Positions 10,863 to 37,185 of a stretch of 64,000 nt of DNA are shown piece after piece. The notes under the pieces are model-generated. The model saw only the letters and a program-made list of their open reading frames with translations, did not search any database and was not told the origin of the DNA. The stretch's first letter is position 1, and every line of letters starts with the position of its first letter. A program made the position numbers and the translations under genes. The DNA comes from Lachnospiraceae bacterium (lineage in GTDB: Bacteria; Bacillota; Clostridia; Lachnospirales; Lachnospiraceae): positions 1 through 64,000 of the forward strand of contig JAFQQI010000047.1 in assembly GCA_017411305.1 (NCBI GenBank), read 5' to 3'.

Positions 10863-10904
10863 GGAGGTAAAGCCGGAAGTTATGCCGGCAACTGACAGGT
10901 TATG
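10863..10904 (+). promoter_or_regulatory. glnS leader: distant ribosome site plus small hairpin
   Basis: The only strong Shine-Dalgarno sequence, GGAGG at 10863-10867, is about 35 bases before the glnS ATG, which is unusually far. Between them GCCGG (10872-10876) can pair with CCGGC (10885-10889), which would shorten the distance. An in-frame stop at 10893 rules out an upstream start. Confidence 0.4.
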
Positions 10905-12611: not shown

Positions 12612-12648
12612 CTTAATTATTATTTACTGAGATGTAGGAGGAAGTAGC

Positions 12649-15563: not shown

Positions 15564-15691
15564 ATGAGTGCTCCTTTCGGGGATAACAAAATAATGAGTT
15601 TTACTATCTTATATCTTAATACTATTTTGCAAAAAAGAAAAGAGAATATGTATAAAAATATATGAAAAATGAGTAAAAATATGAAAGTGAA

Positions 15692-15740
15692 TTGCAGACA
15701 TCAAAAAATTATGTTATATTAAAATTCGACTAATAAAGTC
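15692..15740 (+). promoter_or_regulatory. Promoter and possible operator of the TetR gene
   Basis: TTGCAG (15692-15697) and TATATT (15715-15720) are separated by 17 bases. Just after the -10 box, GACT (15728-15731) and AGTC (15737-15740) form a short inverted repeat around five bases, a plausible autoregulatory TetR site. The operator part is weak evidence. Confidence 0.5.
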
Positions 15741-15769
15741 AATAGTAAGAAATTATATGGGGTGATGGG

Positions 15770-16378: not shown

Positions 16379-16395
16379 AGAAGGAGGAAAAGAAC

Positions 16396-17157: not shown

Positions 17158-17159
17158 GA

Positions 17160-17636: not shown

Positions 17637-17724
17637 AATTTGATAACCCTTTCCGTTTGCTGCAATTCTTTCTTTACCGGTTGTCCGGCAATTGTTTTTA
17701 GTTTGTGAAATATTACAATTTTTA

Positions 17725-17738
17725 TACCGGGTCCGGTA
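17725..17738. repeat. Short GC-rich palindrome between spoVAC and the MBOAT gene
   Basis: TACCGG (17725-17730) and CCGGTA (17733-17738) form a palindrome inside an otherwise AT-rich divergent spacer. A longer alternative pairing joins AATATTAC (17709-17716) with GTAATATT (17736-17743). It could be an operator for either gene or the core of a hairpin; nothing in the sequence decides this. Confidence 0.4.
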
Positions 17739-17771
17739 ATATTTTTTTAAGAATTTTCCTGAATATGTTTC

Positions 17772-17800
17772 TTGTGGATTGCAAGGCAGAGTGATAGAAT
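17772..17800 (+). promoter_or_regulatory. Putative promoter of the MBOAT gene
   Basis: TTGTGG (17772-17777), a 17-base spacer and TAGAAT (17795-17800) lie about 40 bases upstream of the predicted ATG. Confidence 0.45.
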
Positions 17801-17838
17801 AAAATTATAAATAACAAATGAGAAATCAGGAACTTGAA

Positions 17839-19215: not shown

Positions 19216-19250
19216 CGATGAGAAAGTGAGAAATCACTTTGGGAGATAGC

Positions 19251-20342
19251 ATGAAGAATATAAAAAAGTGTCCTTTATTTATTATATTGTTCAGTAGCGG
19301 ATTGCTGTTTACACTTTTGGCGGCAGGCGGGCTTAGAACCATCTATCAGACGCAGCAGTTTGAATGGCAAAAAGAACCACTACTGGCAGTTGTGTTTCGG
19401 GGACTGAATGAAGAAATTTATCCATGGCAGTTGATGACAGAGGGAAATGACAACTTAAGCAGTAGCAGTGGAGCCGGAGGAAAAAGCGGCGGAGAAGATA
19501 TGCCGGGAGATGCTACGGAACCGGATGCGACGCCTACGCCGACCCCTACTGTAACGGAGGCGCCCAAGGCAACCAATGCGCCGCAGGCTACTACGCCGGT
19601 ACAGTCACCGTCACCTACGCCGTCACCTTCACCATCCCCTACGCCGTATGTGCGCCCCACTCCAATGAGAGAATCTACCTATGAGGAATATACAAGCCAT
19701 ATATCGGCAGATATTTACGGTGACGCAGGAGTGCTCCATGCGGCAGAATATGAATTTGTCAAAGTAGATGAGAGTTATTTTGATGATGCTCTTTTTATCG
19801 GAGATTCCCGAACCGTGGGACTTCGGGATTATTCGGATTTGTCACAACATGCGGATTTCCTTTGTGAAACTTCGTTGACGGTTCATAAGGTTTTTAAACA
19901 TGATTTCAAAGGAAAAGGAACATTAGAAGAAGTACTGCAGGCGAAGGAATATGGTAAGATTTACCTGATGGTGGGGATTAATGAACTGGGAACCGGCACA
20001 ACGGAAGACTTTATGGCGAAGTACACGGAAGTGGTAGAAAAGCTAAAAGAGTTAGAGCCGGAGGCCAAAATCATTATTCAGGCAAATATGCATGTAGCTG
20101 CAGAGAGAAATGAAAGCGATGCCATATTCAATAATGGTAATATTTCCGCAAGAAATCATGCTATTGCCACATTAGCGGATAATCAGCAGATTTTCTACAT
20201 TGATGTAAATGAAGCAGTATGTGACGAAAACGGTTGCCTATCGGAAGAATATACCTATGACCAAATTCATTTATTGGGCAAGTATAACGACTTATGGAAA
20301 CAGTTTTTACTCAGTCACGGAATTCAGGAAGAAACAGAATAA
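19251..20342 (+). CDS. Membrane-anchored SGNH/GDSL-like protein with Pro/Thr-rich linker
   Basis: An N-terminal hydrophobic anchor (about residues 8-30) is followed by a spacer and a long linker rich in Thr, Pro and Ser (about 85-140). An SGNH-like domain follows. Visible blocks are FIGDSRTVGLRD (nucleophile Ser), MVGINELGTG in the third block, and YDQIHLLGK with the Asp/His pair near the C-terminus. These residues fit an esterase or O-acetyltransferase acting outside the cell. With the MBOAT gene directly upstream, the pair probably O-acylates a surface polymer. The ATG at 19251 follows GGGAGA; an in-frame TTG lies at 19239. Confidence 0.8.
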   Translation: MKNIKKCPLFIILFSSGLLFTLLAAGGLRTIYQTQQFEWQKEPLLAVVFRGLNEEIYPWQLMTEGNDNLSSSSGAGGKSGGEDMPGDATEPDATPTPTPTVTEAPKATNAPQATTPVQSPSPTPSPSPSPTPYVRPTPMRESTYEEYTSHISADIYGDAGVLHAAEYEFVKVDESYFDDALFIGDSRTVGLRDYSDLSQHADFLCETSLTVHKVFKHDFKGKGTLEEVLQAKEYGKIYLMVGINELGTGTTEDFMAKYTEVVEKLKELEPEAKIIIQANMHVAAERNESDAIFNNGNISARNHAIATLADNQQIFYIDVNEAVCDENGCLSEEYTYDQIHLLGKYNDLWKQFLLSHGIQEETE

Positions 20343-20350
20343 AATGAATA

Positions 20351-20404
20351 AAAACCTTCGGATGGGAAAACCTAACAAAAAGTTTTTTCATTCGGAGGTT
20401 TTTT
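20351..20404 (+). promoter_or_regulatory. Terminator-like hairpin that contains the spoVAD ribosome site
   Basis: The left arm at 20351-20364 can pair along 14 bases with 20389-20402 (two G-U pairs). It is followed by a run of six T at 20399-20404, immediately before the spoVAD ATG. The right arm contains GGAGG (20395-20399), the Shine-Dalgarno sequence of spoVAD. The 24-base loop is large. It looks like an intrinsic terminator for the upstream pair and would also mask spoVAD translation in read-through transcripts. Confidence 0.6.
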
Positions 20405-21445
20405 ATGGAAGGAAGTAGCGGCGCAATTTTTGCACAGGGAAAACAAAGTATTAAGATACCGGTTCCGGTTTATATAAGAGCAAGTGCATCCGTAGTGGGG
20501 ACCAAGGAAGGAGAAGGACCCTTAGGAGATTTGTTTGATGTGGTTGGTGTGGATGATAAATTCGGATGTGATACCTGGGAAGAAGCAGAGAGTACCTTGC
20601 AAAAAGAAGCATTGCAGATGGCAATCGGTAAGGCAGGGTTAAGCAGGGAAGATATCCGTTTTTTGTTTGCCGGTGACCTTCTTGGTCAATGTATTGCCAG
20701 CAGCTTTGGACTTGGCGGGTTCGGAATTCCGCTTGTGGGAATGTATGGCGCCTGTTCCACCTGTGGGCTTTCCCTATCCATGGCAACCATAATGATTGCG
20801 GGAGGAATGGCGCAGTATACGGCTTGTGTAACCTCCAGTCACTTTGCCAGCGCGGAAAAAGAGTTCCGATTTCCTCTTGCTTACGGGAATCAGAGACCGC
20901 TTTCTGCTTCATGGACGGTGACAGGCAGCGGAGCCTTTGTGGTAAGCAGTAGCAAAAGCGATAGTGACAGAGCCCTGATTACAGGAATTACCATAGGAAA
21001 AATTATGGACTTCGGATTAAAGGATTCCATGAACATGGGAGCTTGTATGGCCCCGGCGGCTGCTGATACCATACTTACCCATTTGCGTGATTTCAGGACA
21101 AAACCGGAGGACTATGACAAAATTATTACCGGAGATTTAGGATATGTAGGGCAAAAGGCGCTTTGGGATATGCTGAGAGATCAGAATATGGATATTTCCC
21201 ATGTGCATATGGATTGCGGTATCGAGATTTATGACAGAAGCCAGGATGCCCATGCAGGAGGCTCCGGTTGCGGCTGCAGTGCAGTTACACTGTCAGCCTA
21301 TATTTTGAAACAGCTGGAGGAGGGCGTATGGAAAAGAGTACTGTTTGTGCCAACGGGAGCACTTCTGAGTAAAACCAGCTACAATGAAGGGCAAAGCGTA
21401 CCCGGAATTGCCCATGCCGTGGAGCTGGTGAGCTGTGTGGCCTGA
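20405..21445 (+). CDS. spoVAD: Stage V sporulation protein AD
   Basis: SpoVAD is the thiolase-fold, dipicolinic-acid-binding component of the SpoVA complex in spores. The 346-residue protein matches the family from ASASVVGTKEGEGPLGDLFD onward. It includes YGACSTCGLSLSMA around the pseudo-active-site cysteine, HFASAEKEFRFPL, and GDLGYVG near residue 245. The first ~15 residues differ from the usual start. The gene is separated from spoVAC and lies downstream of an unrelated MBOAT/SGNH pair, with its ribosome site inside a terminator-like hairpin. It ends 3 bases from the convergent exosortase gene. Confidence 0.95.
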   Translation: MEGSSGAIFAQGKQSIKIPVPVYIRASASVVGTKEGEGPLGDLFDVVGVDDKFGCDTWEEAESTLQKEALQMAIGKAGLSREDIRFLFAGDLLGQCIASSFGLGGFGIPLVGMYGACSTCGLSLSMATIMIAGGMAQYTACVTSSHFASAEKEFRFPLAYGNQRPLSASWTVTGSGAFVVSSSKSDSDRALITGITIGKIMDFGLKDSMNMGACMAPAAADTILTHLRDFRTKPEDYDKIITGDLGYVGQKALWDMLRDQNMDISHVHMDCGIEIYDRSQDAHAGGSGCGCSAVTLSAYILKQLEEGVWKRVLFVPTGALLSKTSYNEGQSVPGIAHAVELVSCVA

Positions 21446-24498: not shown

Positions 24499-25686
24499 AT
24501 GAAAAATGGCTACAACAAAACAATCATTTCCTGCTTTGTAGGATACATTGTACAGGCAATTATTAACAATTTTATTCCTCTTTTGTTCCTAACCTTTCAG
24601 AACAGCTACGGAATTTCTTTAGGTAAGATTACACTTTTAGTAACCTTTAATTTCGGAGCTCAGCTGGTGGTGGATATCCTTGCCATCGGTTTTGTGGACA
24701 AAATCGGCTATCGGGCATCCATGATTATTGCTCATGTATTTGCGGCAGCAGGACTTGTATCGCTTACGGTATTGCCGGAGCTGTTTGCAGATCCTTTTGT
24801 GGGACTTTTGTTATCGGTAATGATTTATGCAGTGGGAGGCGGACTTCTGGAGGTGCTGGTAAGTCCTGTAGTAGAAGCCTGTCCTACTGATAATAAAGAA
24901 AAAGCAATGAGTCTTTTGCATTCCTTTTATTGTTGGGGACATGTAGGAGTGGTATTATTGTCTACCCTATTCTTCCAATTGTGCGGAATCGGAAACTGGA
25001 AGATTCTGGCTATTTTGTGGGCAATTGTTCCATTACTGAATGCGGTGGCATTTACCAAGGTTCCTATGGCACAGCTTTTGGAGGAAGGAGATACAGGTCT
25101 TTCCATGAAGGAGCTGGCATCTATGAAAATGTTCTGGGTGTTAATGCTGATGATGCTTTGTGCAGGAGCCAGTGAACAGGCTGTCAGTCAGTGGGCCTCT
25201 GCTTTAGCAGAAAAAGGATTTGGTATCAGTAAGACGTTAGGAGATTTAATCGGACCTATGGCATTTGCAATATTAATGGGGTCTTCCCGTGCCTATTACG
25301 GAAAATTCGGAGATAAAATTAATTTGGAAAAGTTTATGATAGGAAGCAGTATCCTTTGTATTATTTCCTATTTGATGATTTCCCTGATTCCTATACCGGC
25401 ACTTGGATTCTTAGGATGTGCGTTGTGCGGACTTTCAGTAGGAATCATGTGGCCCGGAACCTTTAGTGTGGCATCTGCATCTATGCCAAGAGGAGGTACT
25501 GCCATGTTTGCACTGTTGGCGCTGGCAGGAGATATGGGATGTTCTTCCGGTCCAACTTTTGTAGGTTTTGTGTCAGGAGCTTTTGGGGATAACTTGAAAC
25601 TGGGCGTGTTAGCAGCAATTATTTTCCCGACACTTCTGATTCTAGGCGTACAGAATATCAAAAAGCTGCGGAAAATAAGTGGCTGA
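24499..25686 (+). CDS. Major facilitator superfamily transporter
   Basis: The 395-residue protein has about twelve hydrophobic segments and the MFS-type loop between helices 2 and 3 (FVDKIGYRAS). The sequence pattern, with EVLVSPVVEACPTDNKEKAMSLLHSFYCWGH, is that of the sugar-transporter-like MFS group related to FucP. A GH3 glycosidase gene and a sugar-catabolism island follow, so sugar or oligosaccharide uptake is likely. It is divergent from the VIT-VWA/exosortase operon and shares the intergenic region with the phased GCATC array. The substrate cannot be read from the sequence. Confidence 0.85.
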   Translation: MKNGYNKTIISCFVGYIVQAIINNFIPLLFLTFQNSYGISLGKITLLVTFNFGAQLVVDILAIGFVDKIGYRASMIIAHVFAAAGLVSLTVLPELFADPFVGLLLSVMIYAVGGGLLEVLVSPVVEACPTDNKEKAMSLLHSFYCWGHVGVVLLSTLFFQLCGIGNWKILAILWAIVPLLNAVAFTKVPMAQLLEEGDTGLSMKELASMKMFWVLMLMMLCAGASEQAVSQWASALAEKGFGISKTLGDLIGPMAFAILMGSSRAYYGKFGDKINLEKFMIGSSILCIISYLMISLIPIPALGFLGCALCGLSVGIMWPGTFSVASASMPRGGTAMFALLALAGDMGCSSGPTFVGFVSGAFGDNLKLGVLAAIIFPTLLILGVQNIKKLRKISG

Positions 25687-25754: not shown

Positions 25755-25818
25755 GAAATTAAGAAGAAAAGCTACTGCGGTTTTGGGGTGCAGGCAGCAG
25801 AAAGAGAAAGGTGTTTTT

Positions 25819-27981
25819 ATGGAGCAGAAAATAGAGCAGTTACTTAGTCAGTTAACACTGGAAGAAAAATTAGATATGATTCACGGTGCGGGACTGTTTC
25901 GCACGGAAGGTGTAGAGAGACTTGACATTCCCGCCTTTTACTTTTCTGACGGACCGCACGGAGTACGTGCCGAGTTCCAAAACAGCAAGTGGATTTCAGC
26001 AGGAAATGATGATGATTATGTAAGTTATCTGCCTTGTAACAGTGCCTTGGCATCTACATGGAACAGGGAGCTTGCTTATGCTTCCGGCAGTGTACTTGGT
26101 GAGGAAGCAAGGGGAAGAGGTAAGGATATGATTTTAGCCCCCGGCATCAACATCAAGAGAAGTCCCCTTTGCGGCAGAAATTTTGAATATCTGACAGAGG
26201 ACCCTTATCTGGCAGGAGAGATGGCGATTCAAATAATTAAAGGCATCCAGCAGCATGATGTGTCTGCCTGCGTGAAGCATTTTGCAGTGAATTCCCAGGA
26301 GACAGACCGGTTAATGGTAGATACTCTTGTAGATGAGCGCACCTTAAGAGAAATCTATCTGCCTGCATTTAAAAAAGCTGTGCAGGAGGGTGGCAGCTAC
26401 TCCATTATGGGAGCTTATAATAAATTAAATGGTGAGCACTGTTGTGAAAATCCTGTGCTTTTGGATGAGATTCTTCGTAAGGAATGGGGATTTGACGGAA
26501 CGGTAGTCAGTGACTGGGCAGCTGTTCACCGCACCAAGGAAGCGGCAGAGGTTTCTTTGGATGTGGAAATGTCCGTAACCGATGATTTTGATAATTATTA
26601 TTTGGCCAATCCCTTGAAAGAGCTGATTCAAAAGGGAGAAATAGAAGAAAAGCTTGTAGATAATAAGGTACGTAATATTTTACGGATGATGTACCGTCTG
26701 AAGATGCTGGGAGAAGAGAAAACCCTAAGAAGCAGCGGCGCATACAACACACCCGAGAACAGGAAGGCAATGCTTGCAGTGGCAAGGGAATCTGTGATTC
26801 TATTAAAGAATGAAAACAAAAAACTGCCTTTAGAGCCAAAGAATATGAAGAAAATTGCAATGATTGGTCAGAATGCACGCATGTTGCATGCAAATGGTGG
26901 CGGCAGCTCGGAAATCAAGGCATTGTATGAAATTAATCCGTTGATGGGTATGAAAATGTTACTTGGCGGCAATACCAAGGTGTGTTATGCACCCGGCTAT
27001 ATGATTCCTACCAAGGAGCAGGAGTCAGAAGTCAACTGGCAGCAGGACAGCGTAAATCTTGAGACTATGGCAGCCGTGCAGGTGCCTGTAGAACTACGTG
27101 ATTTTACAGATACAGAAGAGGGAAAACGTCTGCTTGAAGAAGCAGTAGCATTGGCAAAAGAATGCGACGAAGTGATTTTTGTAGGTGGTCTGAATCACGA
27201 TTATGATACAGAAGGAAATGACAGGGGCACCATGAAACTGCCTTACGGCCAGGACAAGGTAATTGAAGCCCTGTTGCAGGTAAAGCCGGATATGACCATT
27301 GTAATCGTGGCAGGTTCTCCTGTAGAAATGCCCTGGAAGAATCAGGCAAAAGCCATTGTATGGAGCTATTATGCGGGGATGGAAACAGGAACCGCACTTG
27401 CAGAGGTATTGCTTGGCAAAGTGAATCCTTCCGGTAAGCTTGCAGAAACCTTCCCTTATACCTATGAGGATACGCCTACAGGTAAAAACGGTGAGTTCGG
27501 AAAGCCGGGTAAGGTAGAGCATAAGGAAGGTGTGTTTGTAGGATACCGTTATTATGAGTCCAAGGAGGTAGAAACTTCCTACTGCTTCGGCTACGGATTG
27601 TCTTATACTGAGTTTGTACTGGAGGATTTGGCAGTCAGTGCAGATGGTGGTAGCGTGAGTAAAGATGCTACCGGAGATATTTGTGTCAGCCTAACGGTTC
27701 GCAACATTGGAAGCAGAGAGGGTGCTGAGGTGATTCAGCTTTATACAGGACCTGCGGAGAAGAGCGATGAGCATCCTGTGAAGGAGCTTAAGAACTTTGT
27801 AAAGATTTCTCTGGAAGCAGGAGAAAGCAAGAAGGTAGAAATGAAGCTGACAGCAGAAGATTTTGCCCATTATGACATAGAGAAAAAAGCTTTTGTGACA
27901 AAGCCCGGTGTGTATAAAATCATGATGTGTACTTCCGTGCAGGACATTGGCCTGGTAGGTGAATGGAACTATCAGAATTAA
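25819..27981 (+). CDS. Glycoside hydrolase family 3 beta-glycosidase
   Basis: The 720-residue cytoplasmic enzyme (no signal peptide) begins with the (beta/alpha)8 domain. It shows SDGPHGVR, PGINIKRSPLCGRNFEYLTE and ACVKHFAVN, and the nucleophile aspartate in GTVVSDWAAVH (near residue 235). The second sandwich domain has SVILLKNENKKLPL and GGGSSEI. A fibronectin III-like domain ends the protein. This is the arrangement of bacterial beta-glucosidases/xylosidases. Lack of secretion fits hydrolysis of imported oligosaccharides brought in by the MFS protein encoded just upstream. The ATG at 25819 follows AGAAAGG. It ends 4 bases inside the convergent AraC gene. Confidence 0.93.
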   Translation: MEQKIEQLLSQLTLEEKLDMIHGAGLFRTEGVERLDIPAFYFSDGPHGVRAEFQNSKWISAGNDDDYVSYLPCNSALASTWNRELAYASGSVLGEEARGRGKDMILAPGINIKRSPLCGRNFEYLTEDPYLAGEMAIQIIKGIQQHDVSACVKHFAVNSQETDRLMVDTLVDERTLREIYLPAFKKAVQEGGSYSIMGAYNKLNGEHCCENPVLLDEILRKEWGFDGTVVSDWAAVHRTKEAAEVSLDVEMSVTDDFDNYYLANPLKELIQKGEIEEKLVDNKVRNILRMMYRLKMLGEEKTLRSSGAYNTPENRKAMLAVARESVILLKNENKKLPLEPKNMKKIAMIGQNARMLHANGGGSSEIKALYEINPLMGMKMLLGGNTKVCYAPGYMIPTKEQESEVNWQQDSVNLETMAAVQVPVELRDFTDTEEGKRLLEEAVALAKECDEVIFVGGLNHDYDTEGNDRGTMKLPYGQDKVIEALLQVKPDMTIVIVAGSPVEMPWKNQAKAIVWSYYAGMETGTALAEVLLGKVNPSGKLAETFPYTYEDTPTGKNGEFGKPGKVEHKEGVFVGYRYYESKEVETSYCFGYGLSYTEFVLEDLAVSADGGSVSKDATGDICVSLTVRNIGSREGAEVIQLYTGPAEKSDEHPVKELKNFVKISLEAGESKKVEMKLTAEDFAHYDIEKKAFVTKPGVYKIMMCTSVQDIGLVGEWNYQN

Positions 27982-28832
27982 TAAATGGATGATTTCCGGA
28001 ACTGACCGGGGCTGATGCCCACACGGCTGGTAAAGGCGTTGATAAAGCTGGCAGATGAGCTGTAGCCCAAGGAATCTGCAATATCTGCAATAGTTCTGGT
28101 GGTGGAGCGCAGAATGGTTTTGGCATAGTTGATTTTTAATCCGGCAAGATACTCAATGGGAGAGCAGCCGGTTTGTGTGCGGAATTGATGAGATAAATAG
28201 CTTGGGCTGATATTGACATGTGCAGCAATGATATCCAGGGACAGTGGTTCCTGGATATTTTTTTTCATATATTCGATGACCTCAGCAATGGTATCGGAAA
28301 CAGAGGAAGGCGCACCGGTAGTAACATAATTAAAGGATTGCATTTGACACAGAATCTGATAGCTTGTGCAGGACAACGTAATATCAGAAGGATATTCTCC
28401 CTGTTCCAAAGTAGTAAGCACGGAAAATAAAGCATCGGAAAGCTGTGTGTGGTTAGAGAGGCGGAAAACGGGAGCGTTATTCTGTGCAATGAGATGATTG
28501 GTAACGGTAACCATAGTGGGGCCATCATAGTGGAAAAAAATAAATTCACAAGAAGAATTACAGTAATAAGCATGAGGCTGATTACAGTTTAGCAGAATGA
28601 TTTCGCCGTCTGATGCCGTATAATGCTGAGACTGATAATTTACATGAAGTTCTCCGGAAATCATATAGATAAATAGCGGAGAAGCATTCCCTTCTCTTAC
28701 AATGCGATAGTTTTCATTACAGTAAAAATGTCCGCACAGCAGCATGTGGCAGTAATATTCCCGAAACATTTCTGATGGCGAAAAGAAGTAGTATGCAGAT
28801 TCGCCGACGGTTCCTTTTTCATTACATTTCAT
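27978..28832 (-). CDS. AraC family transcriptional regulator
   Basis: The 284-residue protein has a cupin-like N-terminal sugar-sensing domain (about 1-160) and a C-terminal pair of helix-turn-helix motifs (about 185-284). These include HVNISPSYLSHQFRTQTGCSPIEY and TIADIADSLGYSSSASFINAF, the standard AraC signature. It is divergent from the ROK/NanE/glycyl-radical operon, whose start lies 195 bases away, and it is the likely regulator of that operon and perhaps of the GH3 gene. The intergenic region 28833-29027 is AT-rich and shows no convincing promoter, as expected for an activator-dependent one. Confidence 0.9.
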   Translation of the reverse strand: MKCNEKGTVGESAYYFFSPSEMFREYYCHMLLCGHFYCNENYRIVREGNASPLFIYMISGELHVNYQSQHYTASDGEIILLNCNQPHAYYCNSSCEFIFFHYDGPTMVTVTNHLIAQNNAPVFRLSNHTQLSDALFSVLTTLEQGEYPSDITLSCTSYQILCQMQSFNYVTTGAPSSVSDTIAEVIEYMKKNIQEPLSLDIIAAHVNISPSYLSHQFRTQTGCSPIEYLAGLKINYAKTILRSTTRTIADIADSLGYSSSASFINAFTSRVGISPGQFRKSSIY

Positions 28833-29027: not shown

Positions 29028-29972
29028 ATGAATTATTACTTGGGACTGGATGTGGGCGGTACAAATCTGGTAGCAGGTGTGGTGGATGAGGAATATCGTA
29101 TTATTTCAAAAGTGAGCATACCTGCAGGCGCGCACCGAACTATAGAAGAAATCACAGATGACATGGTGGCGGTTTCGCTACAGGCAATCAGCAAAAGCGG
29201 ATTGTCGGAAGGAGATATCAGCAAATGGGGGATTGGGATGCCGAGTTATGTAAACCCCAAGACGAAGCTTCTGGTACATGCCAATTGTTTTGGCTGGAAG
29301 AATGTTCCTATTTATGATTATTTGGAAAGGAAGCTTTCTTTACCGGTTCAAATTGAAAATGATGCCAACTGTGCAGCCCTGGGAGAAGCCCTTGCAGGTG
29401 CGGCCAAAGGAGTTGAAAATGTTGTTATGTTAACCATAGGAACCGGACTTGGCGGCGGAATCATTATGAACGGGAAGATTTATTGCGGAGCGGACAGAAT
29501 GGGCGCGGAGCTTGGTCATGTGAAGCTGGTGTATGACGGAATTCCGTGTACCTGCGGTCAAAAGGGATGTGCGGAGGCATATTGCAGCGCAACAGCTCTA
29601 ATCAGACAGGCCAAAGAGGCAGTGCGCCAAAACAGAAATTCCTTGCTTTGGGATTTGTGCGGTGGCGACATAAATGCAATAGAAGGGAAAACCATATTTA
29701 AGGGAATTGAAATGGGGGATGAAACTGCGAGACAAATATTGGAGCAGTATACAGAGTATTTGACTTGTGCAATGTCCACCTATATTACATTATTCAGACC
29801 GGAAAAAATCATTCTGGGCGGCGGAATTGCCCAGGCGGGAGAATTATTGTTAGCACCTATCAGAGAAAGACTGATTCCAAATACCTTTGCAGGAACCGAA
29901 ATCGGTGTTCCCACGGTGGAAACAGCAAAATTAGGGAATGATGCGGGCATTATCGGTGCCGCGTTTTTATAA
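29028..29972 (+). CDS. ROK family sugar kinase
   Basis: The 314-residue protein starts with the ATP-binding motif GLDVGGTNLVAGV and continues with the sugar-binding VQIENDANCAALGEA. The ROK signature contains GTGLGGGII, GAELGHV and the zinc-binding CTCGQKGCAEAY. No DNA-binding domain is present, so it is a kinase and not a ROK repressor. The next gene is a NanE-type epimerase 16 bases downstream, which suggests N-acetylmannosamine or another hexose as substrate. The AraC gene is divergent. Confidence 0.9.
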   Translation: MNYYLGLDVGGTNLVAGVVDEEYRIISKVSIPAGAHRTIEEITDDMVAVSLQAISKSGLSEGDISKWGIGMPSYVNPKTKLLVHANCFGWKNVPIYDYLERKLSLPVQIENDANCAALGEALAGAAKGVENVVMLTIGTGLGGGIIMNGKIYCGADRMGAELGHVKLVYDGIPCTCGQKGCAEAYCSATALIRQAKEAVRQNRNSLLWDLCGGDINAIEGKTIFKGIEMGDETARQILEQYTEYLTCAMSTYITLFRPEKIILGGGIAQAGELLLAPIRERLIPNTFAGTEIGVPTVETAKLGNDAGIIGAAFL

Positions 29973-29988
29973 AAGGAGGAAAAGAAAA

Positions 29989-30726
29989 ATGAGAGATAAG
30001 AAAGCATTATTAGATTCTATGAAGGGCGGTTTAGTGGTATCCTGTCAGGTACAGCATGATGATCCTACTTATTCCATGGATTTTGTGGTAAAAATGGCAG
30101 TAGCGGCCAAATGGGGAGGCGCAGTGGGAATCCGCGCCAATTCACCGGACCAGATTAAAGCAATCCGTGAGCAGGTGGATTTGCCGATTATCGGATTATA
30201 TAAAATCTGGCATGATGATACGGATGTATTTATTACCCCTACCCTAGAGGCTGCAAAGCAGGTATGGGAAGCAGGGGCTGAGATTATTGCTCTTGACTGC
30301 ACAAGTCAAATTACACATGAGGGAAGACCTGCCTACGAGTTACTTCCCATTGTAAAGAAGGAAATTCCGGAGGCAATTATTTTTGCGGATGTATCAAACT
30401 ACGAGGAAGCAAAAAGAGCAGTGGAGCTGGGTGCGGATATTGTAGGTCCTACCTTATATGGTTATACCGAAGAGACCAAGCATATCGAAAGCCCCGACCT
30501 TCGTGAGTTTGCCAGAATGTGCAGAGATTTCGGAGATAAAGTATGTATGATGATGGAAGGTCACGTATATACGCCGGAGGATGCAATGAAATGTATTTAT
30601 CTAGGCGCCCATTCCGTAGTAGTAGGCAGTGCTATTACAAGACCCCACCTAATTACAAAGAGATTTGTGGATTTATTGTCAGGTTATCAGAACAATTGGC
30701 GTGAAGCAGAAAGAAGTAAGCACTAA
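29989..30726 (+). CDS. nanE: NanE-type N-acylmannosamine-6-phosphate 2-epimerase
   Basis: The 245-residue TIM-barrel protein shows GGLVVSCQVQHDDPTYS, GGAVGIRANSPDQIKAI, DLPIIGLYK and FITPTLEAAKQVWEAGAEII. This is the arrangement of NanE, which converts ManNAc-6-phosphate to GlcNAc-6-phosphate in sialic-acid catabolism. A ribosome site AGGAGG precedes the ATG at 29989. No sialate lyase, deacetylase or deaminase gene is present nearby, and the following gene, overlapping by one base, is a glycyl radical enzyme. The protein may therefore act on another 2-epimeric sugar phosphate; the family name is firm, the substrate is not. Confidence 0.85.
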   Translation: MRDKKALLDSMKGGLVVSCQVQHDDPTYSMDFVVKMAVAAKWGGAVGIRANSPDQIKAIREQVDLPIIGLYKIWHDDTDVFITPTLEAAKQVWEAGAEIIALDCTSQITHEGRPAYELLPIVKKEIPEAIIFADVSNYEEAKRAVELGADIVGPTLYGYTEETKHIESPDLREFARMCRDFGDKVCMMMEGHVYTPEDAMKCIYLGAHSVVVGSAITRPHLITKRFVDLLSGYQNNWREAERSKH

Positions 30727-33029
30727 TGGTTAAATTTGATGTAAACGGTATTCAGAATGTGGAAGTAAGCAAAAAAATTCCCTGCGAAAAGCCTCTGCTT
30801 TGGCAGCTTGAGCTGATGGAGCGTTATACCGAAACCCACCGGAAGTTTTCGAGCTGTTCTAAGGAACGGAGAGAAGCAGAATGCTTAAAGGTATTATTTC
30901 CGGCACTGCTTAGGGAAATTGAAGAAACGGATTTGTTTGCGGGAAGACTTGATTTTCTTCCTATCGGATTTGGCGCAGTAACCTCCGTGGGCGGCGTGGG
31001 ACATTATTGTGTTTTTGCCAAGCTGCGGGCTTTTGAGAAAGAAATTGGGGAAGCTTATCATGACCGTGTTGAGGCGTTGTATCAATATTGGCTTTCCCAT
31101 GATTTGAAGACCCGGTATTGTAAAGAAGTATTAACTGAAACTACAATCGGAAGATTTATTGATGTGGAATATCCCTTGATTGCAACAGCCAGATTGTCAG
31201 GAATGATGCTGGATTACCGGAAGCTTCTTGATTTGGGAATCGCCGGTCTTCGTGCGTTACTTCAGGAGCAGAGCAGTCAGGAGCCTGATAATGAATTTAT
31301 CCGGTCCTGCTTTATGTGTCTTGATATTTACAAAGAAAGTGCCTGCTACCTTGCCGAAATGGCATATAGGCAAAGAAATCAGCTTGATGTCACAAATACA
31401 AAGAGATACCAAGAACTTACAGATATGGCAGAGGCACTTGAGAAAATCAGCAGCAACAAACCGGAAACCTTTTTGGAAGCGTTACAGGCGTTGTGGTTAT
31501 ATGCACTGCTTGCAGGCTGCATCAATTACGGACGTTTGGATGAGTTGCTTGGTTCTTATCTGGCAAGGGATTTGGACAGTGGACGTATGACCGAAGAACA
31601 GGCTTATGCGTATGTGAAATCCCTTTGGACCATGGTAGAAAACCGCAGAACCACGGTGAACGGCAGGATTATTGTAGGCGGAAAAGGAAGAAAAAATCCC
31701 GAGGATGCGGATCGATTCCTTCATATCGCCATGAAGGTGGCAAAGGACTGCCGCTATGTAGAGCCCCAGTTTACCTTGCGCGTGGATGAAAATACTTCTG
31801 AGGAAATCTGGGATGAGGCGTTGGAAGCTCTTGGAGCGGGTGCTACTTACCCAACAATCTACAATGATGAGGTAAATGTGCCGGCAGTAGCCTACGGAAT
31901 GCGGGTGGATGAAGAAACAGCAAGCAGATATGTACCTTTTGGCTGTACGGAGTTTGTACTGTGGGGACAAAGCACCGGGACGCCTAACGTGTGCATCAAT
32001 CTGCTAAAGCTCCTCACGATTTACATGAACCGGGGCGTTGACCCTATGGATGGACAGTACAAGTTAGGACCCATTCAGCCAAAGCAGTTTGAAGAGATGA
32101 CTTCTTTTGAAGAATTCTATGATGGCTATCGGGAGCTTTTGGATTACTATATGGATTTGTCCATTGATGCGCAGTATCGCTCCTATGAGATTATGGACCA
32201 ACATGTAGGCTTCCTTTTTAACAGTATTTTGATGGATGACTGTATTGCAAGAAGAAAGCCGCTTTTGGACGGAGGCGTGCGTTATTTAGGCGGTACCTGT
32301 GAAACCTACGGAAATATCAATACATCAGATTCCTTATATGTAATTAAGAAATTGGTGTTTGAGGAAAAGAGCGTTTCCCTGCCTGAACTGATTAAGGCAA
32401 CCATAAGCAATTTTGAGGGCTATGAGCTGCTTCGAAAGAAATGCATTGCCCTTGAGAAATACGGCAATGATTGTAAGCCGGTGGACGATATGGCAAATGA
32501 TTTGTACGAATTTGTTGCCAAAGGAATCCGGGAGCGTGGCATTTTAAAAGGAATGCAGTATTATTTAATTGTTATCAGTAACAATTCCCTGAATTCGGAG
32601 TGGGGGATGCGGACAGGGGCATCTCCCGATGGAAGACTTGCGGGAATGTTTATGAACCCTGCCAATAATCCCCAAGGCGGTGCTGACAGAAGCGGTCCTA
32701 CGGCAATGCTGAATTCATTAAGCAGATTTGATGCAAAATACCATGGTGGCTCGGTGCAGAATATCAAGTTTTCTACGAGCATGTTCCGTGACAATAAGCT
32801 GTTGATGAAAACGCTGTTCAAGACCTATTTTAAAAAGGGCGGTTGTCATTTGATGGTAACAGTAGTTGACAGCGGTGCACTGGAGGATGCTATGGAGCAT
32901 CCCGAAAACTATCCTAACTTAATTGTACGTGTGGCCGGATATTCGGCAGTATTTGTGGATTTGGCGGATTGTGTGAAGCAGGAGCTCTTAAGCAGAACAC
33001 TTTACGATGAAGGAAAATGCAGGGTGTAA
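30726..33029 (+). CDS. Glycyl radical enzyme, pyruvate formate-lyase-like, function unknown
   Basis: The 767-residue protein has the PFL-like fold. The catalytic cysteine is Cys407 in VPFGCTEFV, and the glycyl-radical site is Gly738 in VRVAGYSAVF, 30 residues from the end as usual. The cysteine is followed by Thr-Glu. This is the Cys-x-Glu pattern of eliminating members (dehydratases and lyases) and not the Cys-Cys pair of true pyruvate formate-lyase. Its start overlaps the stop of the epimerase gene and its activase follows, so it acts in the sugar pathway. A C-O or C-C cleaving reaction on a sugar-derived substrate is inferred. It is oxygen-sensitive by family. Confidence 0.9.
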   Translation: MVKFDVNGIQNVEVSKKIPCEKPLLWQLELMERYTETHRKFSSCSKERREAECLKVLFPALLREIEETDLFAGRLDFLPIGFGAVTSVGGVGHYCVFAKLRAFEKEIGEAYHDRVEALYQYWLSHDLKTRYCKEVLTETTIGRFIDVEYPLIATARLSGMMLDYRKLLDLGIAGLRALLQEQSSQEPDNEFIRSCFMCLDIYKESACYLAEMAYRQRNQLDVTNTKRYQELTDMAEALEKISSNKPETFLEALQALWLYALLAGCINYGRLDELLGSYLARDLDSGRMTEEQAYAYVKSLWTMVENRRTTVNGRIIVGGKGRKNPEDADRFLHIAMKVAKDCRYVEPQFTLRVDENTSEEIWDEALEALGAGATYPTIYNDEVNVPAVAYGMRVDEETASRYVPFGCTEFVLWGQSTGTPNVCINLLKLLTIYMNRGVDPMDGQYKLGPIQPKQFEEMTSFEEFYDGYRELLDYYMDLSIDAQYRSYEIMDQHVGFLFNSILMDDCIARRKPLLDGGVRYLGGTCETYGNINTSDSLYVIKKLVFEEKSVSLPELIKATISNFEGYELLRKKCIALEKYGNDCKPVDDMANDLYEFVAKGIRERGILKGMQYYLIVISNNSLNSEWGMRTGASPDGRLAGMFMNPANNPQGGADRSGPTAMLNSLSRFDAKYHGGSVQNIKFSTSMFRDNKLLMKTLFKTYFKKGGCHLMVTVVDSGALEDAMEHPENYPNLIVRVAGYSAVFVDLADCVKQELLSRTLYDEGKCRV

Positions 33030-33034
33030 ATCAT

Positions 33035-33934
33035 ATGAACGCAACAATTTTTAATATTGAGCGGTTTGCCATTCATGACGGACCGGGCATACGGACCACT
33101 GTGTTTTTTAAAGGATGTCCCCTAAGGTGTCCCTGGTGTGCAAATCCGGAATCACAAAAAGCTGCAAGGCAGCTACAACATCAGTCAAACAAATGTAGTA
33201 CCTGCCAAAGCTGTGTAAGGAACTGCCCGAATGGTGCGATTCTTTGTAAAGAAGGCAGGATTGCCATAAACCGTGAAGCATGTAAGAAGTGTGAAGTCTG
33301 TGTGAAAGTATGTCCTAACGGGGCATTGTCCATTGTCGGGCAAGAACAAAGCATAGAAGAGATTTATGAGGTGCTTATACGGGATAAGGACTACTATGAA
33401 GCCAGCGGAGGCGGCATTACTTTATCCGGCGGGGAAGTCATGCTACAATGGAAAGTGGCAAAAGAGCTTTTAAGAAAAGTAAAGGCAGAGGGAATCCATA
33501 CGGCAGTCGAAACCTGCGGGGATGTACCGATAGAGGCTTTTGAAGAACTGACCGGATATGTAGACTTGTTTTTGTTTGATATCAAGCACATGGATGCAGA
33601 AAAATTAAGGAATGTGACAGGGGGAAGCTTGGAGCGGATTCTTCAAAATTTGTCCTATCTGACAAAGCAAAAAGAACATCAAATGATTATCAGGGTGCCG
33701 GTGATACCGGAATTTAATGATGATGCTGCGGTTATGACACAAATTTTTGAGCTGGCACAGCGGTTTGGAATTCCTGAAGTGCATCTGTTGCCTTATCATA
33801 CCTTGGGGATTCACAAATACGAACAGCTTGGCATGACCTATCAAATGAAAGAGCAGGGAATGACAAAGGAAGAACTGCAGCCCTATGTAAGAATGGGAGA
33901 GCAGATGGGTCTTAGTGTAGGTATCGGTGGTTAA
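33035..33934 (+). CDS. Glycyl-radical enzyme activating protein (radical SAM)
   Basis: The protein (about 299 residues) carries the radical SAM cluster motif CPLRCPWC (Cys28, Cys32, Cys35) after DGPGIRTTVFFKG. It has two ferredoxin-type clusters, CSTCQSCVRNC and CKKCEVCVKVC. This is the layout of activases that generate the glycyl radical on the partner enzyme using S-adenosylmethionine. It sits directly behind the glycyl radical enzyme gene. The ATG at 33035 is preferred, as AGGGTG precedes it at a good distance; an upstream in-frame ATG at 33017 would overlap the enzyme's end. Confidence 0.93.
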   Translation: MNATIFNIERFAIHDGPGIRTTVFFKGCPLRCPWCANPESQKAARQLQHQSNKCSTCQSCVRNCPNGAILCKEGRIAINREACKKCEVCVKVCPNGALSIVGQEQSIEEIYEVLIRDKDYYEASGGGITLSGGEVMLQWKVAKELLRKVKAEGIHTAVETCGDVPIEAFEELTGYVDLFLFDIKHMDAEKLRNVTGGSLERILQNLSYLTKQKEHQMIIRVPVIPEFNDDAAVMTQIFELAQRFGIPEVHLLPYHTLGIHKYEQLGMTYQMKEQGMTKEELQPYVRMGEQMGLSVGIGG

Positions 33935-33952
33935 AGGAGAAGGAGAACAACA

Positions 33953-36184
33953 ATGGAACAGAACAAAGAAAAAACAATCGGGTTTTGGAAAAAGGATGCA
34001 ATGGGGTTACCTTGTTTTCAGTATACAGGAACACTTCCTTATGAGGAATATTTAGAAAACGGACAGAAGGTAAAGCTGCCGGAGGACCCCTGGTTTTTGC
34101 TTGGTAATTATCAGCTTACGGTATTTACCCATGTAAGTGGTGAATATGAGTTGATTACAGGACAGCGTTCCTGGGGAAGAGTGAATCAGGGAAAACATAA
34201 GAACAGTGGGATAAACAGAGCAGAGCTTACAATAAATGGAAAAACGTATCGTCTTGCCGGAATGGATTCTTTATCCATTGACCCGTTAAAGTGTGTAAGA
34301 AGCTTTGGCTGCGGTTTTGCAGATTATGCCTATGAGATTGATGGAGTGAAGGTAAGCAGACGCTTGTCAGTTAAACCATCAACCAATCCCTATGACGGCG
34401 CATCCGCGATGCTCTGTGAAGTTATGTTAACCAATACATCTGATAAAGAGGCAGCTATCCGTTATGAGGAAGGTGTGACTGCCAATTACAAAGAAATACA
34501 ATACCAGCAGGCACCGGAAGGAACAGGCAAGGTACAGTATACCTATGAAGCGTATGAAGAAGCTGAGAAAAATACTGTGGGCGTACAAATCAAGGCTCAT
34601 TATACAGACCCCATGCTTTGTGCAAAGAGAGAAGATATTTCTTTATTTGAAGGCTTTCCTCCCTGTTTGTTTATAGCCGGGATTTCTAATGCCAAAGTTG
34701 CTGTAAACAGTGAAAGGGAATTAGTAGGTACATATGCCGGTAAATTGATGCAGGAGGAAAGCATTTGTTTACAGATGATAATAGGCTATTCCTTTGAATA
34801 CGGGGTATCAAATCTGATTGATATCAGAAGAGATTTATCCACCTATGTATCGGGAAAGCAGGAAAAGATTCAGTCAGCGTATGCAAATGAGTGGCTAAAT
34901 GCGTTACCTGCCTTTGAGAATGAGAAGGATGAAGCGTTAAGAAATGAACTACGTTGGCATGCCTACAGCTTAGAGGCAATGGCAACCTACAGTGAGTTTT
35001 ATCAGGAAACTAAGATTCCCCAGGGAACCTGTTATGATTACTCCTGGGGTGTTCACGCAAGTGCCAGAGATAATTTCCAGCATGCATTGCCTCTTGTGTA
35101 CTATAATCCGGCACTGGCAAAAAGCGTAATCCGGTATATACTGAAAAGAACCACTCCCTTTGGTGAAATCAGATTGATTGAAAAAGGCAATGCTTATGCC
35201 GATAATGAACGGTATTTTACCAGCGACCAGCAGCTCTATTGCTTATTACTTATTACAGAATATCTGCGGGTGACGAAGGATTATGAGCTGTTGCATGAAA
35301 AGGTAGCTCCCTACCCGGTAACCGGTCAGAGGGAAATGACAATCTTAGAGTTTGTACAAAAGATTTATCTTTTCCTAAGGGATACGGTAAACGTGGGACC
35401 ACACGGACTTGTCAGACTTTTGAACTCTGATTGGAACGATACGGTGTATTATGTACTGAAGGTTCCCTATAATACAGTGGTGCTTGATGGGGAATCCCAC
35501 ATGAATTCTGCCATGGCCATCAGTATTTTGCAGGCATTGACACCGGTTTTAAGAGAAATCAGTGGTAAAGAAAGCTTTGCCGGTGAACAGGCAGTAATTG
35601 GTACGCTTTGCAACAGTATGGAGGTATATCGTAAGGATATTCTGGATGCATTTTTAAAGGATATGGGAGAGCGGGCTTTCCCCCGCAGAATGTATTTTGC
35701 AGGCAAACCCTACGGGGAAGAGAATATGTTCTTAGAGCCCCAGGGATTTACCCTGCAGATTAGAGAGCTGTCCTTAGAGCAGAAGCAGACTCTTTACAGC
35801 GAAATGCAAAAAAGGGTGTACGACGGTGAAAAGCTTGGTGCCAGAGAGCAGCAGACCCCCGAATTTGAGGACGACCACTACGAAAAAGGCTCCCGTGAAA
35901 ACGGCGGATTCTGGTGGGCATTGAACGGACCCGTTATTGTAGCCGTGAATGAGTTCAATCATGAGGAAGCAGTAAGGCTTTTGCAGAATATGTCATTCGG
36001 CAATTATGCAAAGCAGTTTCCAAAGTATTGGTCCTCTTATTGGTCGGCAGCCGATAATGTGGAATCCTCGCTGATTATTGAGGAAGGTCTTCCGGACCAG
36101 TCGGAAGATTATAGTTGTATTCCGATTTATTGTGCACATCCCCATGCATGGATGGTATACTGTTATTACAAAATAAACGAGTAA
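33953..36184 (+). CDS. GH94-like glycoside phosphorylase
   Basis: The 743-residue protein has an N-terminal beta-sandwich region and an (alpha/alpha)6-type catalytic part. NSDWNDTVYY holds the putative acid aspartate (D493, W494, N495, D496), and the later segments ENMFLEPQGFTLQI and SRENGGFWWALNG match cellobiose-phosphorylase-type enzymes of GH94 and relatives. Such enzymes split a glycosidic bond with phosphate to give a sugar 1-phosphate. No signal peptide is present. Its sequence is far enough from cellobiose phosphorylase that the bond type and substrate are open. It follows the activase by 18 bases. Confidence 0.8.
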   Translation: MEQNKEKTIGFWKKDAMGLPCFQYTGTLPYEEYLENGQKVKLPEDPWFLLGNYQLTVFTHVSGEYELITGQRSWGRVNQGKHKNSGINRAELTINGKTYRLAGMDSLSIDPLKCVRSFGCGFADYAYEIDGVKVSRRLSVKPSTNPYDGASAMLCEVMLTNTSDKEAAIRYEEGVTANYKEIQYQQAPEGTGKVQYTYEAYEEAEKNTVGVQIKAHYTDPMLCAKREDISLFEGFPPCLFIAGISNAKVAVNSERELVGTYAGKLMQEESICLQMIIGYSFEYGVSNLIDIRRDLSTYVSGKQEKIQSAYANEWLNALPAFENEKDEALRNELRWHAYSLEAMATYSEFYQETKIPQGTCYDYSWGVHASARDNFQHALPLVYYNPALAKSVIRYILKRTTPFGEIRLIEKGNAYADNERYFTSDQQLYCLLLITEYLRVTKDYELLHEKVAPYPVTGQREMTILEFVQKIYLFLRDTVNVGPHGLVRLLNSDWNDTVYYVLKVPYNTVVLDGESHMNSAMAISILQALTPVLREISGKESFAGEQAVIGTLCNSMEVYRKDILDAFLKDMGERAFPRRMYFAGKPYGEENMFLEPQGFTLQIRELSLEQKQTLYSEMQKRVYDGEKLGAREQQTPEFEDDHYEKGSRENGGFWWALNGPVIVAVNEFNHEEAVRLLQNMSFGNYAKQFPKYWSSYWSAADNVESSLIIEEGLPDQSEDYSCIPIYCAHPHAWMVYCYYKINE

Positions 36185-36201
36185 CATTTCCGGGGGTACC
36201 T

Positions 36202-37185
36202 ATGAAAAAAGTCAGATTTGGAATTATCGGAAGTAATTTTATTGTAGACCGCTTTATGGAAGCAGCAAAACAGTGTGCAAATGCTGAAATAACAGCCATC
36301 TACTCAAGAAATAAAGATAAGGCACAAAGGCTGGCAGATGAGAAAGGGATTCCGTTGTCATTTGACAATTTGGAATCTTTTTCCGACTGTCGGGAAATGG
36401 ATGCGGTATATATTGCAACACCTAACAGCTGCCACATGAAGCAGACGTTGATGATGCTCAGGAAAGGGAAGCATGTGCTTTGTGAAAAGCCGCTGGCGTC
36501 CAATTTTAGGGAAGCAGGTATTATGTTTCAATGTGCTAAGGATAATGGTTTATTTTTGATGGAAGCCATGCGTCCTGTATTTCATCCTGCTTATCAAGTG
36601 ATAAAAGAGAAGCTGAAAGAAATTGGTCCTATCAGACAGGTGACTTTATCTTATTGTCAATATTCATCAAGGTACGATAAATTTAAACAGGGAATTGTGG
36701 AGAATGCTTTTAATCCGGCATTATCAAACGGAAGCATTATGGATATCGGATGCTACCCGATTCACGTAATGGTGATGCTGTTCGGAATACCGGAGAAAAT
36801 GATGTCTATGGGGATTAAGCTGCCGGAAAGCATTGACGGAAACGGCAATATTCTTGCTCATTACGGTGAATTCCTTGTAAATATCGGTTATTCCAAGATT
36901 ACAAACTCCTATTTGGCAAATGAAATCCAAGGAGAAAAGGGAAGCATCAGATTTCACAATGTATCAAGTCCTGAATCTATTATTTGTAAAATAGGTAATA
37001 AAGAAGAGCGTATTGTAATGTCAGTTCATAAGCAGGATATGATATATGAGCTGGAGCAGTTTGTGAGTGCGGTTCAAAGCGGAGTATATACTGATGTATA
37101 TCAAAGTTATTCTCTTGAAACAATGAAGATAATGGACGATGCAAGAAAACAGATGGGAATTGTATTCCCGGCAGACAGATTATAA
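36202..37185 (+). CDS. Gfo/Idh/MocA family oxidoreductase
   Basis: The 327-residue protein starts with the nucleotide-binding FGIIGSNFIVDRF and has the GKHVLCEKPLASN motif of this family, with a C-terminal substrate domain. Members oxidise or reduce sugars, inositols and anhydro-sugars with NAD(P). As the last gene of the radical-enzyme unit, 17 bases after the phosphorylase, it probably acts on the same sugar. A GGGGG site precedes the ATG at 36202. The substrate is unknown; 1,5-anhydrofructose reductases belong to this family, which is one possible reading. Confidence 0.88.
   Translation: MKKVRFGIIGSNFIVDRFMEAAKQCANAEITAIYSRNKDKAQRLADEKGIPLSFDNLESFSDCREMDAVYIATPNSCHMKQTLMMLRKGKHVLCEKPLASNFREAGIMFQCAKDNGLFLMEAMRPVFHPAYQVIKEKLKEIGPIRQVTLSYCQYSSRYDKFKQGIVENAFNPALSNGSIMDIGCYPIHVMVMLFGIPEKMMSMGIKLPESIDGNGNILAHYGEFLVNIGYSKITNSYLANEIQGEKGSIRFHNVSSPESIICKIGNKEERIVMSVHKQDMIYELEQFVSAVQSGVYTDVYQSYSLETMKIMDDARKQMGIVFPADRL

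Follow-up and report, generated by a model that had tools for sequence, protein, structure and literature searches.

Glycyl radical enzymes (GREs) drive major anaerobic chemistry in the gut, for example the breakdown of choline, hydroxyproline and taurine. What such an enzyme does among sugar genes is the question raised by a locus of Lachnospiraceae bacterium (GenBank assembly GCA_017411305.1, contig JAFQQI010000047.1), of which positions 1 to 64,000 of the forward strand were analysed and are referred to here as the window. At 29,028-37,185, six plus-strand genes encoding a ROK kinase, a NanE-type epimerase, a GRE, its activase, a GH94-like enzyme and a Gfo/Idh oxidoreductase stand head to tail. 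This row on a single strand had been described in an earlier, sequence-only reading, and gene calls together with Pfam and NCBIfam family matches confirm it. The conserved unit within the row consists of the GRE, the activase and a distinct NanE paralogue, and the chances are about even that its GRE performs a radical elimination on a monosaccharide phosphorylated at C6, the C2 of which is set by the NanE paralogue. The six genes are listed below, clade A being the GRE subfamily to which the window enzyme belongs.

29028..29972, plus strand: ROK-family sugar kinase, probable hexose 6-kinase (PF00480, 231 bits)
29989..30726, plus strand: NanE-like C2 epimerase of a distinct paralogue subfamily (PF04131, 175 bits; PRK01130, 247 bits, cut-off 189)
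30726..33029, plus strand: GRE of clade A, 767 aa (PFL-like, 389 bits; Gly_radical, 93 bits)
33017..33934, plus strand: radical-SAM GRE activase (TIGR02494, 358 bits, cut-off 174)
33953..36184, plus strand: GH94-like enzyme, 743 aa (Glyco_hydro_94, weak, 49 bits, cut-off 27)
36202..37185, plus strand: Gfo/Idh/MocA oxidoreductase (GFO_IDH_MocA, 95 bits)

A scan of a collection of 84,980 species genomes with the clade A alignment, based on two peptide patterns that may miss further relatives, confirmed 130 relatives of the GRE; the best 80 were kept, and all counts out of 80 omit the other 50. These 80 are distributed over Bacillota (54), Bacteroidota (19), Actinomycetota (5) and Spirochaetota (2), and clade A hosts include Parabacteroides, Alistipes, Tannerella, Enterococcus, Listeria immobilis, Lacticaseibacillus, Holdemanella, Anaerotruncus, Clostridium and Treponema. 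Neighbouring genes were counted by tblastn (E ≤ 1e-8), the lower figure of each range being obtained with an added 60-bit floor. An activase match is present in 78/80 loci. A NanE-like gene (at least 55% identity) is found in 63/80 loci, or in 65/80 if L070 and L072 are included, where an antisense open reading frame masks it (L numbers denote loci, G numbers genomes). Eight further genomes carry it elsewhere, which brings the count to 73/80 genomes. It was not found in the other seven (L067, L078, L088, L089, L093, L111 and L095, the last from Epulopiscium and taken to be G125), some of which are metagenome bins and possibly incomplete. Since NanE and activase genes adjoin the GRE across four phyla, the association is not due to chance.

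The remaining neighbours are a DeoR regulator (35/80 loci), an AraC regulator (25-29), a ROK kinase (32-33), a window-type Gfo/Idh protein (20-21), a GH94-like enzyme (15, one of which, L114, is only a 24% match), a xylose-isomerase-like barrel (10), a DUF1080 hydrolase (8) and ManA (7). Among 42 loci flanked by 6 kb or more in each direction, the activase occurs 42 times, NanE 37 times (38 with L070), ROK 19 times, the GH94-like gene 10 times and Gfo/Idh 11 times. Besides the window, the full six-family set is found in 2/80 loci, L043 and L046, the latter with Gfo/Idh on the opposite strand (34% identity); if Gfo/Idh is not required, the other five families occur together in 11/80 loci, L043 and L046 among them. 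Of the six-gene set emphasised in the sequence-only reading, the epimerase holds its place as a near-constant partner of the GRE, whereas the oxidoreductase and the kinase are not constant parts. That reading had also proposed an eliminase-type GRE with a C-x-E motif in a sugar locus, which is supported, and its reservation that orthologues might rarely lie beside sugar genes does not apply, as they do adjoin such genes.

The module is sparse, because an even sample of the phylum contains the GRE in 0/397 other genomes (E ≤ 1e-120) and the NanE-like protein in 0/397 (E ≤ 1e-70). No GRE relative was detected on viral contigs, where none of 8 pattern matches was confirmed. In a Parabacteroides distasonis record, the ROK, NanE, GRE and activase genes are consecutive, and the GRE is labelled merely as 'pyruvate formate lyase family protein'. 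The GRE-NanE pair was not found in the titles and abstract openings of the literature searched, a body of text that leaves out most subscription papers and so does not establish its absence from print. A P. distasonis record filed as 'plasmid 67' (L146, NZ_OY725812.1) carries dnaG, ftsH, lon, nusB and coaE and may be a piece of the chromosome.

The NanE paralogue itself follows the GRE closely. In 144 related genomes, NanE matches are two-peaked: four genomes, each with a clade A GRE, have a protein of 78-100% identity, and the rest do not exceed 47%. Counting the genome of the window, a NanE-like protein is present in 4/5 genomes with the GRE and in 0/139 without it (Fisher p 2.9e-7), the exception being Epulopiscium G125. 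The NanE-like proteins share 33-47% identity with canonical NanE of related genomes, and in a quick tree the split between the 55 NanE-like and the 22 canonical proteins has an SH-aLRT support of 100.

The active-site residues of Staphylococcus aureus NanE, an N-acetylmannosamine-6-phosphate 2-epimerase, are Gln11, Arg40, Lys63, Asp124, Glu180 and Arg208 (PMC8482478). All six are shared by the paralogue, which belongs to the same family: Gln11, Arg40, Lys63, Asp124 and Arg208 are identical in 55/55 NanE-like and 22/22 canonical proteins, Glu180 in 55/55 and 21/22 (one X), and Tyr149 is also kept in the NanE-like proteins. The paralogue differs from NanE by a broken signature, fixed changes in the pocket and a conserved extra C-terminal tail. 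The NanE signature reads I-G-I-x-K-basic (PMC8482478), whereas NanE-like proteins read I-G-L-[YW]-K-[IVQ], with no basic residue after the lysine. Next to the active site, L13Q (54/55), D65W (53/55), a change of Y66 mostly to His (42/55) and replacement of R64 by Ile, Val or Gln are found, and M122F, T144P, A179M and N182H each occur in 55/55. The tyrosine that contacts the acetamide carbonyl in Clostridium perfringens NanE (PMC8482478) is conserved in 19/22 canonical proteins and is Phe in 55/55 NanE-like proteins, as it also is in S. aureus NanE. The paralogue may thus still be an open-chain 6-phosphate C2 epimerase, perhaps acting on a different, possibly neutral, sugar.

Two arrangements of the NanE-like gene stand apart. 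In a Breznakia locus (L144, 9237-10669), NanE-like and canonical NanE genes lie in tandem with a deoxyribose-phosphate aldolase (DERA) gene upstream, on the GRE contig and not beside the GRE; this duplication may show the origin of the paralogue. In Alistipes-type loci (L054, L055, L063 and L071), NanE is followed by a 310-aa nucleotidyltransferase-like protein and a phosphoglucomutase.

As judged from sequence, the subfamily of the GRE, clade A, is new, deep and unnamed. A global alignment gives the window GRE 22.3-26.7% identity with 27 other GREs, and across 27 clade A rows the identity with these reaches at most 27.8%. Curated models of full-length GRE families score it at 96-290 bits against cut-offs of 678-1150, and the equivalogs HypD, CutC, HpfG/HpsG, IAD, HPAD and PFL are all missed. 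The best scores are 290 bits for the PFL2-3 subfamily (cut-off 678), 250 for HypD, the best equivalog (1100), 227 for PRK09983 (1109) and 217 for CutC (1050); the PRK09983 model is passed by a PflD relative (L110 locus). Among PDB structures, glycerol dehydratase 1r8w (232 bits) and 8id0 (226 bits) match best, those of PflD and YbiW reach about 192 bits, and pyruvate formate-lyase (PFL) structures align only from residue 577 or 578 onward. The B12-independent glycerol dehydratase 1r8w is of the same fold family and the best PDB match by sequence, but it aligns only over 106-758, the loop at about 305-318 is shorter in the window GRE and the surrounding residues differ, and no diol-utilisation genes were noticed in the window locus.

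In the tree (61 rows, 750 columns, a quick IQ-TREE short search with long branches flagged), a branch of length 0.96, with an SH-aLRT support of 100, has clade A and a sister clade B together on one side, and YbiW, PflD, CutC, HypD and the GRE of a pdu-type locus lie elsewhere. The placement relative to HPAD, IAD, IslA, BSS and HplG, named references of which are not among the tree rows, rests on the NCBIfam and PDB scores. In the 144 related genomes, clade A proteins match at 58-76% (G032, G022, G125 and G069, besides the window) and clade B at 35-38%; outside these clades, the matches listed reach at most 34%, apart from short C-terminal stretches (at most 40% over about 195 residues). The concern that the GRE might fall within a characterised cluster was not borne out for any cluster tested by NCBIfam, PDB, tree or alignment. 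Clade B comprises six loci in five genomes. With its GCGE motif and R-V/I-G-G-F glycyl loop, it constitutes a second undescribed GRE group (L036-L041), situated near glycoside hydrolase (GH), ATP-binding cassette (ABC) transporter and kinase genes; a scan of 20 neighbouring proteins (GH42-like, GH8, amylase, ABC, PfkB and others) revealed no common partner. Only one of its five host genomes (G006) has a NanE match, which is canonical (42%).

The residues named in the sequence-only reading are correct, namely G406-C407-T408-E409 and Gly738 in RVAGY. Cys407, Glu409 and Gly738 are invariant across a 74-sequence alignment that includes the window enzyme, and with the radical Gly738 loop, the thiyl Cys407 and an activase encoded by the next gene, the protein has the features of the GRE superfamily. 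The eliminase-type Cys-x-Glu is present as C407-T/G-E409 in 27/27 clade A rows and as G-C-G-E in 6/6 clade B proteins. The His residue that PflD (His156) shares with most other GREs compared is replaced by Gly in 27/27 clade A rows and retained in 20/27 other GREs. Arg314 is invariant in clades A and B, where 20/27 other GREs have Asn, and so is the N619-N620 pair; Met710 of clade A replaces a Gln found in 27/27 other GREs. The clade A loop E-N-R-R-T-T-V-N-G-R (305-314) is shorter than its counterpart in YbiW, PflD and glycerol dehydratase, and its three Arg residues, Arg307, Arg308 and Arg314, constitute a candidate phosphate site.

The sugar supply of the module varies between loci. Mannose-family phosphotransferase systems (PTS) occur in 4/80 loci; in Listeria immobilis and two Enterococcus genomes they follow the NanE-GRE pair, and in the fourth locus (L097) the PTS lies on the opposite strand, with 24-30% identity. 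The closest NCBIfam model of the PTS IIC component is AgaW (170 bits, cut-off 300). L046 contains a monosaccharide ABC transporter upstream of ROK, the best models of which, GguA/GguB, are slightly below their cut-offs. In a Fournierella/Oscillospiraceae group, the module is joined by ROK and a xylose-isomerase-like barrel, by Gfo/Idh genes and, in many cases, by ManA. A DUF1080/Gfo/Idh set is found downstream in 8 Bacteroidota loci. In many Erysipelotrichaceae just GRE, activase, DeoR and NanE are left, among the genes searched for. In L145, a NagB-like gene (146 bits, cut-off 326) lies upstream of the NanE-like gene. Because the supply systems vary, the core seems to take a monosaccharide 6-phosphate whatever its route of entry. 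DUF1080 or barrel genes, which adjoin the module in 18/80 loci, are shared with 3-keto-glycoside pathways (BT_2158-type dehydrogenase, DUF1080 hydrolase, xylose-isomerase-like barrel), but such genes are absent from the window operon and from the PTS and minimal versions of the module.

The protein families, the catalytic residues, the conserved core and the variable phosphorylation systems, as recorded in sequence and gene order, are consistent with a strictly anaerobic catabolic scheme, the C6 phosphate, step order and elimination chemistry of which we infer. A monosaccharide would be imported or freed from a glycoside and phosphorylated at C6, here by the ROK kinase and in relatives by a mannose-type PTS or other systems. 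With the Lys, Glu and Arg residues usual in NanE, the NanE-like protein would invert C2 of the open-chain 6-phosphate by way of an enolate. After the activase has installed the radical at Gly738, the thiyl radical of Cys407 would abstract hydrogen from one of the CHOH carbons in the sugar phosphate, with Glu409 aiding the departure of a neighbouring oxygen or, less likely, nitrogen substituent. The product would be a deoxy-keto or deoxy-aldo sugar phosphate that could enter ordinary aldolases and isomerases. Since the epimerase is a near-constant partner of the GRE, the likely substrate is narrowed to sugar 6-phosphates, and the module, shared by many gut and other anaerobes, probably breaks a bond of phosphorylated sugars that ordinary enzymes leave intact.

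Several points weigh against this scheme. An elimination product with CH2 at C2 needs no epimerase, so the scheme can hold only if the NanE-like step precedes that of the GRE. The seven of 80 genomes that lack a NanE-like gene include the isolate Peptacetobacter hominis and Epulopiscium, so the GRE may not depend on it. Statements on the pocket rest on alignments. A DERA-type aldolase is enriched, being present in 10/80 loci, whereas a single-copy gene of a 3-Mb genome would be expected in about 0.46, but it lies mostly outside the GRE operon (only 2/10 share the GRE strand at a distance of up to 6 kb), and near relatives account for three of the ten loci. As the aldolase for the product, DERA is kept only as a lead, because several of the matches have only 33-37% identity, few are on the same strand near the GRE, and no product was found that fits both the GRE and DERA starting from a C2-epimerisable aldose.

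DERA also appears at L034/L095 of Epulopiscium (6330-13262), where a second, unclassified GRE (GCND, no NCBIfam model passed) lies beside the clade A GRE. It is followed, as identified by eye, by a Zn-alcohol dehydrogenase, an FGGY kinase and a GldA-like dehydrogenase, in addition to a DERA match. This looks like a separate radical route to deoxyribose-phosphate aldolase, perhaps for a pentitol.

The alternative that survives best starts from YbiW and PflD, which cleave 1,5-anhydroglucitol- and 1,5-anhydromannitol-6-phosphate to 1-deoxyfructose-6-phosphate after PTS uptake in gut bacteria, where anhydroglucitol breakdown is part of GRE chemistry (PMC12441222). This anhydroglycolysis is the nearest analogue of the module, with a strong likeness in architecture: both have a GRE with a C-x-E motif and an activase, YbiW/PflD receive a sugar 6-phosphate from a PTS, and a HAD phosphatase gene lies beside ybiW as it does in some clade A loci. 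Clade A does not appear to be a member of it. The enzyme of the window might nevertheless ring-open the same anhydrohexitol phosphates; Gfo/Idh would then reduce 1,5-anhydrofructose, ROK or a PTS would provide the 6-phosphate, and the NanE-like barrel would have been re-purposed to process the ketose, for example as a Lys aldolase. This is unlikely, although gut bacteria are described as using both such chemistry and entry by PTS (PMC12441222) and the oxidoreductase fits in part. The nearest named PDB matches of Gfo/Idh are dimeric dihydrodiol dehydrogenase (85 bits), which has been named as 1,5-anhydrofructose reductase (PMC12441222), sugar 3-ketoreductase and bacterial 1,5-anhydrofructose reductase (66 bits), but uncharacterised chains score higher, up to 128 bits. 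A second GRE also lies near the clade A GRE in L110 (PflD, with FSA and canonical NanE) and in L095 (the unclassified GRE, with a FrwC-like PTS). Kinship with the 1,5-anhydroglucitol-6-phosphate enzymes mentioned in the sequence-only reading is, however, not supported by the tree. The clade A GRE is 24% identical to YbiW and PflD, is not grouped with them and has Gly in place of the PflD His. It has a NanE-like partner instead of the fructose-6-phosphate aldolase (FSA; FsaA/B) of Escherichia coli, which was found in 1/82 loci searched, beside a separate PflD. No NanE was detected near PflD/YbiW-type GREs at 10 loci of 8 genomes, with L110 as the only exception seen. Finally, a 1,5-anhydrohexitol has no carbonyl to acidify the C2-H, which leaves the conserved NanE machinery unexplained.

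The same survey of 10 PflD/YbiW-type loci led to the rejection of NanE as a general partner of sugar-phosphate GREs, L110 being the contrary case. There, 2-4 kb separate the clade A module from a PflD relative with FSA and activase (15366-20766), and on the far side of this PflD lie a canonical NanE (40%) and a DeoR regulator. In L095, the GRE is preceded by a PTS gene with 35% identity to FrwC, and FrwC-like genes are also present in L085 and L089.

Two further alternatives are improbable, and equally so. The first assumes that the NanE-like protein acts on N-acetylhexosamine-6-phosphates and that the GRE removes the nitrogen or a substituent from a compound of the N-acetylmannosamine-6-phosphate type (axial C2), bypassing NagA/NagB. 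GREs are able to cleave C-N bonds, as in CutC, every NanE catalytic residue and Tyr149 are kept, and both the similarity of PTS IIC to AgaW and the NagB-like gene in L145 agree with an amino sugar. However, the neighbours of the pocket are changed and the acetamide-contacting Tyr is Phe throughout, a change that S. aureus NanE shares, and the GRE would seem superfluous wherever NagA/NagB are available. The second holds that the GRE and the NanE-like protein act on different compounds and are merely co-regulated in a broader glycoside locus. The seven genomes with the GRE but no NanE-like gene and the eight with the gene at a separate site are in line with this, but the pair is kept across four phyla despite differing neighbours and regulators, and in the samples searched the NanE-like gene never occurs without the GRE. 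The label in the public record of the Parabacteroides orthologue suggests a pyruvate formate-lyase, or the GRE might be some other known type with a non-sugar substrate. Either is highly improbable, given C-T-E in place of the Cys-Cys pair of PFL, family scores far below cut-off, an alignment to PFL structures confined to the C-terminal part and a separate clade.

Radical elimination on a 6-phosphorylated monosaccharide remains the preferred reading. In its more specific and more tentative form, clade A could be the first GRE lineage that acts on the 6-phosphate of a free reducing sugar, either an aldose or a hexosamine, with C2 set by a co-evolved NanE paralogue, by an undescribed radical elimination. 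If true, this would represent a fermentative sugar route of anaerobes, including many gut bacteria, that runs parallel to anhydroglycolysis yet is independent of it.

The GH94-like enzyme is a less constant companion; the sequence-only reading had described the locus as a 'sugar-phosphorylase operon'. A profile of 13 GH94-like relatives matches cellobiose phosphorylases (57 bits), and no NCBIfam model matched the protein. CgCBP contains a catalytic Asp490 and binds phosphate via His666 (7 residues after Glu659), Thr731-Gly732 and Arg351 (PMC5501786). The catalytic Asp (D496) and most sugar-binding residues are shared with GH94 cellobiose and cellodextrin phosphorylases; D496, Arg372, Asp373 and Trp494 are invariant in 13/13 relatives, most of which also retain Glu649 and Asn650. 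In contrast, the phosphate-binding His is replaced by Ala or Ser in 13/13, at an unchanged distance from the E-N-G-G motif; this position was aligned by eye, since the HMMER alignment ends at profile position 608. The Thr-Gly pair is apparently replaced as well, the stretch reading W-x-[VL]-Y in 13/13 when placed by eye on a W-L-T-G motif, which we take to be the site of Thr731-Gly732. The enzyme may therefore be an inverting hydrolase (glycosidase) instead of a phosphorylase. HAD-like phosphatase genes, named from sequence, adjoin GH94-like genes in L044, L049 and L068, so a phosphorylase role is conceivable. The locus is a sugar locus as described, but its phosphorylase character is doubtful because the phosphate-binding His is replaced and GH94-like genes occur in just 15/80 loci.

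In the window, the genes are closely spaced. The NanE-like reading frame is open from 29,938, and the ATG at 29,989, 16 bases past ROK and preferred by alignment, is the probable start. The GRE start overlaps the NanE stop, and the activase, with CxxxCxxC and ferredoxin-type cluster motifs, starts at 33,017 or 33,035. The GH94-like gene begins 18 bases beyond the activase, and Gfo/Idh probably starts at 36,202, 17 bases past the GH94-like stop. The ROK kinase scores 258.3 bits with the NCBIfam subfamily model TIGR00744 'glucokinase', slightly below the cut-off of 260.35. Its CTCGQKGCAE stretch fits CxCGxxGCxE, the zinc motif of ROK kinases, which together with the PF00480 domain places it in the family. 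The source genome (2.89 Mb, 82.6% complete) has a single PF02901 match, and a protein search counted a second, weaker GRE match. A ClpB gene lies downstream of the six genes, and three other genes lie upstream:

27978..28832, minus strand: AraC-family regulator, divergent, the probable local regulator (Pfam/NCBIfam; a 70% orthologue in the same place in L042)
25783..27981, plus strand: GH3 glycosidase, possibly part of the same glycoside-using locus (Pfam/NCBIfam)
24499..25686, plus strand: MFS transporter, a possible importer (Pfam)

The MFS transporter has no match in related loci, and the GH3 glycosidase is matched among them in L035 only, with 27% identity.

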